Positions 10,700 to 13,650 of a stretch of DNA of 37,499 nucleotides are shown here, piece after piece. Made by a program: the position numbers and the translations under genes. The DNA is from a virus: positions 1-37,499 of the IMG/VR virus record IMGVR_UViG_3300005527_000128; one strand, given 5' to 3'. Position 1 is the stretch's first letter. Each line of letters starts with the position of its first letter. The notes beneath the pieces were generated by a model that ran no database searches, was not told where the DNA came from, and saw only the letters and a list, made by a program, of their open reading frames with translations.

Positions 10700-10975
10700 A
10701 TGAGTAGAATTGAAAAAGGTTTTGGGATGGTAACATATGATGTTATGCGAGATCCTGAAATAAGCTTAAGAGAAAAAGCAATATATTCTTATTTATGTAC
10801 ATATGCTAATAGTAAAACTAATGAGCTATATGTAGGAATAAATAGAATTGCTGCAGAATGTGGAGTGGATCATTCTACAATTAAGAGAATCATCAAATCT
10901 CTAAAAGATAAAGGAATTATATCAAGAACATTAAGAGGTAATCTTAACAGTTCTATAACAGTTATATTAAAATAA
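10700..10975 (+). CDS. Replication-initiator-type winged helix protein
   Basis: This 91-residue protein matches the HTH_36/replisome organiser N-terminal pattern: VTYDVMRDPEISLREKAIYS, then IAAECGVDHSTIKRIIKSLKDKG as the helix-turn-helix. Such domains bind origin or operator DNA. Here only the DNA-binding half is present, without a DnaD-like C-terminal domain. It probably acts as a regulator. It starts straight after a terminator. Confidence 0.75.
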   Translation: MSRIEKGFGMVTYDVMRDPEISLREKAIYSYLCTYANSKTNELYVGINRIAAECGVDHSTIKRIIKSLKDKGIISRTLRGNLNSSITVILK

Positions 10976-11279: not shown

Positions 11280-11429
11280 ATGTACAAGTATGTAACTCAA
11301 AACATTTGTAAGGAAGGTAGTTCCTACAGAGTTCGTTATCAAAGAAATGGTAAACGCTATTCTAAATTTTTCTCTAAGCGTAAAGAAGCAATTGCTTATA
11401 GAAATAAAATGTTAGGAATGAGTTCTTAA
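11280..11429 (+). CDS. Tiny basic protein like an integrase arm-binding domain
   Basis: This 49-residue protein reads SSYRVRYQRNGKRYSKFFS and KRKEAIAYRNKML, the three-strand plus helix pattern of AP2 and tyrosine-recombinase N-terminal arm-binding domains. No catalytic recombinase domain follows, so it is a stand-alone DNA-binding module. It has its own host-type promoter and starts the transcript that probably reads into the tRNA-like and tmRNA genes. Confidence 0.65.
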   Translation: MYKYVTQNICKEGSSYRVRYQRNGKRYSKFFSKRKEAIAYRNKMLGMSS

Positions 11430-11479
11430 ATTATTATTAGTACTAATATTTAATCACAATTCAAAACAATTAAAAAAAG

Positions 11480-11532
11480 TTTTGGTTAGTAAGTTATGAT
11501 TAATGAAGGGGTTAGTACTAATTTTGGTTAGT
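11480..11532 (+). repeat. Direct repeats in front of the tRNA-like gene
   Basis: TTTTGGTTAGT occurs at 11480-11490 and 11522-11532; the second copy runs into the 5' end of the tRNA-like RNA. TTAGTACTAAT occurs at 11437-11447 and 11512-11522. These may mark an old duplication, a processing signal or an attachment-like site. Confidence 0.45.
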
Positions 11533-11620
11533 CAAGTGGCGGAATGTAGACGCTGAACAGAAGTGCATCATCTCAGTTATGAGTAAGGCGCAACATGCAG
11601 GTTCAAATCCTGTCTTGACA
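11531..11620 (+). tRNA. tRNA-like RNA, class II, non-canonical anticodon arm
   Basis: GTCAAG (11531-11536) pairs with CTTGAC (11614-11619), followed by A. The D-arm region TGGCGGAATGTAGACGC closely resembles tRNA-Leu, and the T-arm GCAGG-TTCAAAT-CCTGT is normal. The anticodon arm does not fold: the only 5-bp option, GCTGA/TCAGT (11552-11577), has a 16-nt loop and competes with the D stem. The acceptor has six pairs. It may be degenerate, interrupted, or used for something other than decoding, so no amino acid is assigned. Confidence 0.5.
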
Positions 11621-11628
11621 CAAAACAT

Positions 11629-11718
11629 TTGGATCATCGCCATCGTAAAGCATCACTGGAAGAGCTCCTATGGAGAAGTGAGATAGTCGAGTAAAACAGG
11701 AAACTGAAATTGATCCAA
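11629..11718 (+). ncRNA. Cloverleaf-like RNA between tRNA-like RNA and tmRNA
   Basis: TTGGATCA (11629-11636) pairs perfectly with TGATCCAA (11711-11718). Inside are CACT/AGTG enclosing CTCC-TAT-GGAG, and CAG-GAAA-CTG with a GNRA loop. The 90-nt size is tRNA-like, but there is no D-loop or T-loop signature. It probably belongs to the same transcript as its two neighbours. Confidence 0.45.
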
Positions 11719-11736
11719 TACGTTTTTTGAAATTAT

Positions 11737-12158
11737 GGGCCTGCCTGGTATTGACAGCAAAGAACAGGTAGTATCACATGCAAGGCCTGGCAGAGGTCAA
11801 ACAATCTGTCAAACAATAAAAGACAACTCTAACGTTGAGCTTTCTAATTACACTGTTGAGTCTCTGTTTGCAGAGCTTGAGTGTTCTGAGCTTGAATTAG
11901 CTTAATTAGACGGGTAGCTATACCTTGGAACAGAAAATAGTATATAGTCCCAAATTTCCTGGATTATTAGGACTTTAATAATATTAGAATCTAGGTGGTG
12001 GAGCTGTTCTAACCGCTGGTTAGTTCCTCATACGGTGCAAAAGTAAAGCTCATCCTTTACTTTAGTACAATAGTTGTCAAGCTATCTCTTGACTAAGCAT
12101 GTAAGAATGGTATTACAGGTGATTTGTTTGGACAGGGGTTCGACTCCCCTCAGGTCCA
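11737..12158 (+). ncRNA. ssrA: Phage-encoded tmRNA
   Basis: The tRNA-like ends are complete: GGGCCTG (11737-11743) pairs over seven bases with CAGGTCC (12151-12157), followed by A. The T-arm AGGGG-TTCGACT-CCCCT precedes it, and the 5' part has the D-loop-like CCTGGTATTGACAGC. The tag frame most likely starts at GAC 11822 and stops at TAA 11903-11905, coding a 27-residue peptide that ends in ELELA. Downstream segments can form pseudoknot stems, for example GTAAAG/CTTTAC. Encoded CCA is absent. tmRNA rescues stalled ribosomes together with SmpB. Length (422 nt) is slightly above average. Confidence 0.88.
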
Positions 12159-12230
12159 CTTAATTTTCATATAGCAAGCAAGGTATGTCCTGATGTTTCT
12201 ACATTGGGGCTTTTATTTTAATTTTATTTT

Positions 12231-12583: not shown

Positions 12584-13132
12584 ATGACAAAAGAAGAATT
12601 CATAGAACTAAAAGACACCTATATTGATAATATCAAAAGATATTTCAAAGAATCAGGTGATTTATTTGCACATGTAGCTCTTTTTTGTGAATTTAAAAAA
12701 GATGCAGAAGATTATGATGAAAGACCTGCTATTGTGCATGTACCAATACCAGGTAAATTATTAGAAACAGGACTAGGTAAAGACTTCTTTGTAGAATTTC
12801 TTTTAAACGAGGCTGTAACTGATATAAAAGAAAAGTTTATTATTAAGGGAGTTGCTTGGTCAGCAGAAGCTTGGATGAAAATGTCAGATAAAAATCCAAA
12901 AAATGATATAGAAATGGATGATCTTCCTATAAAAGCAGAAGTTATCATTATCAATATTGAATCTGAAGATGTAAATGAATGTAATATTTTTGAAATTGAA
13001 AGATCTAAAATGTCTATTGAAGAAGATGGATCAATAAAGTCAGAAGAAATTAATTTTAAAGAATTACAAAGAGAAGGTAATCCAAATATGGGTGGTAGAT
13101 TTTCAGGTTTGTATAATAAGATTAAAAACTAA
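12584..13132 (+). CDS. Hypothetical acidic protein
   Basis: This 182-residue soluble protein has alternating strands (VAWSAEAWMKMS, KAEVIIINIESEDVNECN) and a short C-terminal helix. It starts 2 nt after the upstream stop. The order of strands suggests a compact alpha/beta fold, with no catalytic motif seen. Confidence 0.7.
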   Translation: MTKEEFIELKDTYIDNIKRYFKESGDLFAHVALFCEFKKDAEDYDERPAIVHVPIPGKLLETGLGKDFFVEFLLNEAVTDIKEKFIIKGVAWSAEAWMKMSDKNPKNDIEMDDLPIKAEVIIINIESEDVNECNIFEIERSKMSIEEDGSIKSEEINFKELQREGNPNMGGRFSGLYNKIKN

Positions 13133-13134
13133 TT

Positions 13135-13320
13135 ATGGATTTATTTGGTAAGAAGAAGATAGCAAATTTAGAGAAAGAGATACAACATTTAAAAGGTATG
13201 CTTCATGAATGTGGTATAAAATTAACAGAAAAACAAGAGCATATTAATAAAACAAATGCATTTTGGAAAAAGAAAATGCATGATTTAACACATTCTAAAA
13301 GCAAGAAAAATAAGTTATAG
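13135..13320 (+). CDS. Small coiled-coil protein
   Basis: This 61-residue protein reads IANLEKEIQHLKGMLHECGI and continues as a charged helix with a Lys-rich tail. It is probably a dimerising coiled coil, co-transcribed with the previous gene (2-nt gap). Confidence 0.65.
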   Translation: MDLFGKKKIANLEKEIQHLKGMLHECGIKLTEKQEHINKTNAFWKKKMHDLTHSKSKKNKL

Positions 13321-13398: not shown

Positions 13399-13650
13399 GT
13401 GTTATATCAACTACCAAACGGTAAAGTTATAGAAATAAGTACTGAGCAATTCGTAGAAATGACTGACGAAGAGCTTGAGTATCTTATTGCCTATAACTAT
13501 GGGGAAGTGCAAGAAAATCCTTGGTTTGGTTCAGTATTATCTAAACAAGCTCCAGAAGATGAGATTGATATACTACCAGTAGAATTACCTGATGTGAAGG
13601 ATAATGATAAAATAAGTTCCCTAGACGCAGATTTTAATGTAGAAGATTAA
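13399..13650 (+). CDS. Conserved small acidic protein, GTG start
   Basis: The start is GTG at 13399 and gives 83 residues beginning MLYQLPNGKVIEISTEQFVE, then MTDEELEYLIAYNYGE, NPWFGS and an acidic tail DADFNVED. From memory this pattern recurs in crAss-like phages as a short gene of unknown function; I could not verify that. A terminator directly follows. Confidence 0.75.
   Translation: MLYQLPNGKVIEISTEQFVEMTDEELEYLIAYNYGEVQENPWFGSVLSKQAPEDEIDILPVELPDVKDNDKISSLDADFNVED

Follow-up and report, generated by a model that had tools for sequence, protein, structure and literature searches.

tmRNA genes in phages are already known. Ten phages were listed as carriers by 2014 (PMC4131195), and one survey gives a count of 402 among 18,146 phage genomes (PMC9004378). 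In huge phages, tmRNA is described as occurring together with SmpB (PMC7162821), and the commonest tag length given for tmRNAs is 10 amino acids (PMC11915505). Against this record a phage tmRNA is in itself ordinary, and the unusual part of the locus described here is its tag. In a full-text search, outside which most subscription papers lie, no paper was seen to analyse long conserved phage tags. The conserved long tag is therefore what is new here, relative to the literature that was searched.

The window, meaning the whole 37.5-kb stretch of DNA that was analysed, is a virus record without structural genes. By its protein similarities it is probably a fragment of a crAss-like phage genome. 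Its DnaB-like helicase has its best matches in crAss-like phages, at ~30-33% identity, and the Pfam Crass_capsid major capsid protein is present in records of relatives that share its tag (L332, 1e-29; G004, G006 and G002), whereas no match was found in G009. The capsid protein of the L208 record matches Crass_capsid, and the major capsid protein of Leptolyngbya phage Lbo-JY46 (PP438436), whose listed host is cyanobacterial, is 29% identical to it over 99%.

The host is probably a member of the Bacteroidota, because of the crAss-like relatives, the nearest tRNA-like domains and a TATATTTG box in four relatives. The nearest counterparts of the tRNA-like domain (TLD) are mostly bacterial tmRNAs that carry 9-residue tags of the Bacteroidota type, at 78-83% identity for several members of the family. 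The TATATTTG box, of the Bacteroidota -7 box type, lies 9-10 nt 5' of the tmRNA in L208, L209, L212 and L213. Within the window, TANNTTTG boxes of the same type showed no enrichment.

Structure and setting of the tmRNA gene

The sequence-only reading had placed a phage-encoded tmRNA at 11737-12158 and had proposed ARAGORN or the Rfam model RF00023 as a check; both call a tmRNA. It is the sole RNA gene called by ARAGORN in the window, at 11737-12159 on the plus strand, with a tag-coding stretch at gene positions 86-169. The cmscan hit to RF00023 covers 11737-12161 (+) and the full-length model (1-374), and scores 79.3 bits (gathering score 47; E=2.4e-29); no other RNA family exceeded its gathering score in the window. 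A complete one-piece tmRNA of the standard form at 11737-12158 is thus confirmed, far beyond chance. The boundaries proved exact to the base, G1 being 11737 and the discriminator A73 being 12158; the CCA end is not encoded, and ACTT comes next. The features of the locus are as follows.

11737..12158, plus strand: tmRNA gene (ssrA), one-piece standard form; from ARAGORN, RF00023 and related phage RNAs
11737..11743, plus strand: acceptor stem 5' strand GGGCCUG, including G3 of the G3·U70 alanine-identity pair; G·U in 14/14 RNAs
11782..11815, plus strand: PK1 region, stems GGCC/GGUC and GGCAGA/UCUGUC; pairing in the window read by hand
11822..11905, plus strand: tag reading frame with resume codon GAC, DNSNVELSNYTVESLFAELECSELELA and stop TAA; from ARAGORN and codon analysis of 13 phages
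12096..12130, plus strand: 3' strand of the long helix (AAGCAUGU...UUUG), which links the tRNA-like domain with the mRNA-like part; from the RF00023 alignment and pair counts at its distal end
12134..12150, plus strand: T-arm AGGGG-UUCGACU-CCCCU; from compensatory changes among 14 RNAs
12151..12158, plus strand: acceptor 3' strand CAGGUCC and discriminator A73; from sequence and alignment
12187..12210, plus strand: terminator-like hairpin, followed by TTTTATTTTA; fold z = -5.2

The tRNA-like ends, T-arm and tag frame that had been read from the letters are all present, with A73 and the stop codon TAA in place. The acceptor stem pairing GGGCCUG/CAGGUCC contains G3·U70, the pair read by AlaRS. 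When pairing was tested across 14 tRNA-like domains, including that of the family 2 member L041, all 18 tested pairs formed in 100% of cells, and two-sided compensatory cells numbered 19 against a shuffled mean of 5.0 (0/500 shuffles); sliding the partner strand, as a control, abolished the pairing. The compensatory changes lie in the acceptor stem, the T-stem and the long helix. Two double changes from G-C to C-G are found in the acceptor stem, which keeps G3·U70 in 14/14 RNAs, and the T-arm has two compensated pairs (A-U/G-C and G-C/A-U/U-A). PK1 has the same position and topology in the relatives as in the window and a different sequence; the best-scoring pseudoknot picked by a script agrees with this placement in most rows, the window and L209 being exceptions. 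Ahead of the resume codon, the window has UA at -5/-4; the relatives keep the A at -4 and mostly keep the U at -5. Hairpins resembling the terminator-like one of the window also follow the tmRNA in L203 and L206. By eye, L204, L212 and L213 carry extra repeated ACGGTGCA..AGTAC-type modules 3' of the tag in the pseudoknot region, an arrangement reminiscent of pseudoknot duplication or of exchange between the tmRNAs of phages.

Searching with the tag alignment gave at least 12 further viral contigs that encode a window-type tag in a tmRNA, with a length of 26-28 residues, and L113 is an additional, more distant member of this tag family. Of the 12 contigs, L204 was recognised by eye from its RNA parts, and all the others exceed the RF00023 gathering score; related loci with such a tag score 48-89 bits. 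A profile of the tag family matches 8/8 tested phages of the group, once each, at E<=4.6e-15. No other viral contigs came up in exact-pattern scans with the tmRNA 5' end or with the upstream leader, and a tblastn search of GenBank phages with the tag was empty, a search in which the query length or filter was possibly limiting.

Homologues of the window ORFs at 10700-10975, 12584-13132, 13135-13320 and 13399-13650 flank the tmRNA in several relatives, and their protein identity varies widely, which indicates that the locus is old and syntenic; beside the tmRNA of L211, no homologues of these ORFs were seen. The claim of a phage-encoded tmRNA is therefore borne out by an RNA that is complete, lies amid phage genes, is syntenic in several relatives and is structurally conserved. 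A reading of the locus as an attachment site or host contamination was discarded, since the tmRNA is internal, amid phage genes common to the relatives. At L208 (2914-3385), the family tmRNA has U in place of A73 and scores 48.2 bits, barely above the RF00023 threshold. This copy is possibly decaying or differently charged, and some tmRNA copies in the family may thus be in decay.

Further RNA elements lie directly upstream. tRNA-like elements precede the tmRNA in the window (11530-11621; 24.5 bits, below the gathering score) and in L205 (2841-2909; 35.2 bits), with acceptor, D- and T-arms and no normal anticodon arm. Ahead of this element, window positions 11428-11530 form a conserved non-coding leader of ~100 nt that is also found in L203 and L205, with a closing stem that stays paired through changes and a CAAAAC..GTTTTG hairpin; the window copy of the leader has no Rfam match. 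A possible structured RNA with an 8-bp closing stem (TTGGATCA/TGATCCAA) and a fold z of only -1.3 occupies positions 11627-11720, 3' of the tRNA-like element and 5' of the tmRNA.

The long tag and its distribution

The tag of the window, DNSNVELSNYTVESLFAELECSELELA, has 27 residues, against 9 in the Bacteroidota tags. Within its family the layout consists of a host-like start (DNSN or GNTN), ~18 residues that are conserved (V[ED]LS.YT.[ED]SL.AEL) and a hydrophobic end. The window tag closes with -ELA, not with the -LAA of the short LAA-type SsrA degron. Among the 13 tags of the family, 8/13 end in -ELA and 1/13 in [ILV]AA, the endings of the 12 without [ILV]AA being ELA, ALA, EVA, VLA and ELV. 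The tags are also strongly acidic, with a net charge of -6 to -8.

The tag frame is under purifying selection at the protein level. Over the 13 codon-aligned phage tags, pN/pS is 0.43 for this frame, the two alternative frames give 1.21 and 1.89, 0/300 column permutations gave a value as low, and the pooled dN/dS is 0.36. Ser14 is kept across a switch between TCT and AGT/AGC codons. Most relatives have stops inside the tmRNA that close the frame 5' of the tag, and they often lack a start codon ahead of it, so that resumption of translation on the tmRNA is the simplest origin of the peptide. An amphipathic-helix reading of the inserts was unsupported, as their hydrophobic moments are not above those of shuffles. 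The suggestion that the phage copy could change how stalled proteins are tagged thus gains support at the level of sequence, from a tag that is 27 residues long, phage-specific and under purifying selection.

Among the bacterial genomes and viral contigs searched, the window-type tag was seen in phage records only. A pattern scan across a collection of bacterial and archaeal genomes gave 19 candidate stretches, 0 of which were confirmed by tblastn as relatives of the tag, and the tag profile matched 0/395 genomes in the phylum to which G034 belongs, G034 being the genome with the Emticicia contig L220. Among contigs with the same tmRNA pattern, tags of at least 20 residues occur in 14/69 viral and 2/109 bacterial ones (Fisher p=4e-5). 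Tags of at most 15 residues account for 106/109 of the bacterial contigs, and the three longer ones look like miscalls. Other phages have short tags, such as ANSNFALAA.

Long tags are not confined to the family of the window. For two further long-tag groups, searches with the tag alignments yielded 19 and 15 viral loci, and RF00023 tmRNAs were found in 20/20 of the loci scanned. The family 2 tag (..S[ED]RVAEG[ED]AILASIFGEVAIAA) belongs to further crAss-like phages, 114-128 kb in size, and the family 3 tag (AN.N-FAPSVAEADAILASFGFVDAEALLAA) in unrelated phages without a Crass_capsid match. Both show purifying selection in frame, with pN/pS of 0.21 and 0.34, respectively, and their profiles have a common core, VAE-[GA]-[ED]-A-[IF]-L (E=1.5e-4). 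Homology of the window's tag to those of families 2 and 3 was unsupported, the profile comparison not being significant. What the three families and the long mycobacteriophage tags have in common is a layout, in which a host-like start is followed by an insert of ~17-20 residues and a hydrophobic end. The tag of L357 retains ..EYALAA, and that of L356 joins a GTSNVD start like that of the window family to a family 2 insert. Cultured phages with a long tag include mycobacteriophage C1 (25 amino acids) and Salinibacter phage M31CR41-2 (23), and Streptomyces phage Byblos (20) has one too. Two of the tmRNAs found were unannotated, at L377 357-732 and L375 207-735 (Salinibacter phage M31CR41-2 and Gordonia phage GodonK, respectively).

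It is conceivable, at somewhat less than even chances, that several phage lineages independently rebuilt the tag by placing a conserved module of 17-20 residues between a host-like start and a hydrophobic end, which would give a label that is specific to the phage and is recognised by a new partner, be it a protease, an adaptor or a phage factor. If true, this would amount to protein quality control being taken over by the phage.

Possible functions of the tag

The long tag is conserved as protein, was found in phage records only in these searches and occurs in three families and in cultured mycobacteriophages, which indicates that the payload is selected and not ribosome rescue alone. The reading that we consider likely is that a working phage tmRNA rescues ribosomes through host AlaRS and SmpB and gives the products a phage-specific fate, which would most probably be re-routed or retuned proteolysis. 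Host AlaRS would charge the RNA with alanine by way of G3·U70, and host SmpB and EF-Tu would carry it to ribosomes that have stalled on broken mRNAs. Translation would restart at GAC 11822, and the rescued protein would gain Ala and the 27-residue phage tag instead of the 9-residue degron of the host. Ribosomes would thereby stay available while mRNA decays in the infected cell, and the tagged fragments could meet another or differently timed fate, presumably proteolysis in which the insert is read by a protease or adaptor of the host. The predicted need for host SmpB agrees with a search for SmpB (PF01668), which was found in 0/22 and 0/7 phage records, 29 together, that may be fragments.

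In E. coli, the adaptor and ClpX contacts are at the start and the end of the tag. The insert falls between these contact sites, and the simplest reading is that it may be an added recognition segment that alters which protease or adaptor acts, or at what speed. The -ELA end of most members of the window family may itself be a poor ClpX degron. Long phage tags could also be a source of new degron or anti-degron peptides.

Because -ELA closes 8/13 of these tags and [ILV]AA only one, slower degradation or protection stays a live rival. The long tag would then protect or re-purpose rescued proteins, by preventing degradation or by delivery to a phage factor, and truncated phage proteins would survive or serve the phage. 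The 12/13 tags without an [ILV]AA ending, their strongly acidic character and the failure of the profile to find a second copy of the tag within the same phage records all speak for it. We nevertheless consider it rather unlikely, as families 2 and 3 mostly have [ILV]AA ends and L357 has ...EYALAA, which suggests that a C-terminal degron has been kept, and no phage partner was identified.

It is likewise unlikely, and slightly more so, that the gene is an ordinary captured host tmRNA that provides extra ribosome rescue only, its tag being a drifted host degron of irrelevant sequence. Phage tmRNAs are common, as the survey cited above indicates (PMC9004378), the TLD is nearest mostly to bacterial tmRNAs with 9-residue Bacteroidota-type tags, and bacteria survive with degradation-deficient tags (PMC8012679). 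Drift, however, should not hold a frame-specific pN/pS of 0.43 over 13 divergent phages, nor should it have extended tags of ~9 residues to a length of 26-35 in three families, each with several invariant positions.

A third proposal, that the phage tmRNA mainly serves to evade host factors (toxins, anticodon nucleases) by which tRNAs or the tmRNA of the host are cleaved or blocked, and that its altered coding segment removes their targets, we regard as quite improbable. It would fit with the tRNA and tRNA-like genes that adjoin the tmRNA in several relatives, and the HigB toxin of M. tuberculosis is reported to cleave tmRNA (PMC3912914). Selection acts, however, on amino acids and not on nucleotides. 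Moreover, the window tag still contains ACA, the MazF target.

Finally, the frame is open in the window as a 56-residue ORF (ATG 11735 to 11905), but a small protein gene as the real product is rejected as highly implausible, since the upstream part is a conserved tmRNA fold and in most relatives the stops described above close the frame ahead of the tag.

Comparison with described tmRNAs

Mycobacteriophage DS6A encodes a TLD-only RNA that, as in the present reading, is a phage RNA acting on trans-translation; it differs in having no tag and in being described as a tmRNA inhibitor (PMC4131195, PMC11915505). The tmRNA of Methylophilales phage Melnitz is, like that of the window, complete and phage-encoded, with a proposed role in host takeover, but it is described as the two-piece (permuted) form with a glutamine riboswitch (PMC9004378).

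The crAss-like phages cr7_1, cr124_1 and cr10_1 (L201, L202 and L376) resemble the window in that a crAss-like phage carries a tmRNA, and their tags start with DNVNN.., GNVNN.. and GNNF.., respectively. Their annotated tmRNAs, in contrast, are permuted (RF04321), with tags of 13-14 residues. For Bacteroidota hosts a one-piece form would be expected instead. In cr7_1, positions 45-126 of L201 match the RAGATH-1 hammerhead ribozyme at 68.6 bits.

Mycobacteriophage C1 (Bixzunavirus) has a phage-borne tmRNA with a long acidic tag of 25 residues (ATDTDATVTDAEIEAFFAEEAAALV), and its gene lies inside a tRNA array. The phage and the host phylum are unrelated to those of the window, and no detectable homology of its tag to the window's family was established.

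The host tmRNA of the Bacteroidota (RF00023; tags GENNYALAA and GNTNYALAA) is similar in its one-piece form, G3·U70, PK1, resume context and first tag residues, and the highest TLD identities are mostly to RNAs with such tags (78-83% for several members). The tag segment of the window, by contrast, was not found in the bacterial genomes searched. The RNAs of the window family are set apart from this host tmRNA in being phage-borne, in carrying tags of 26-28 residues instead of 9, and in ending these tags mostly with -ELA rather than -LAA.
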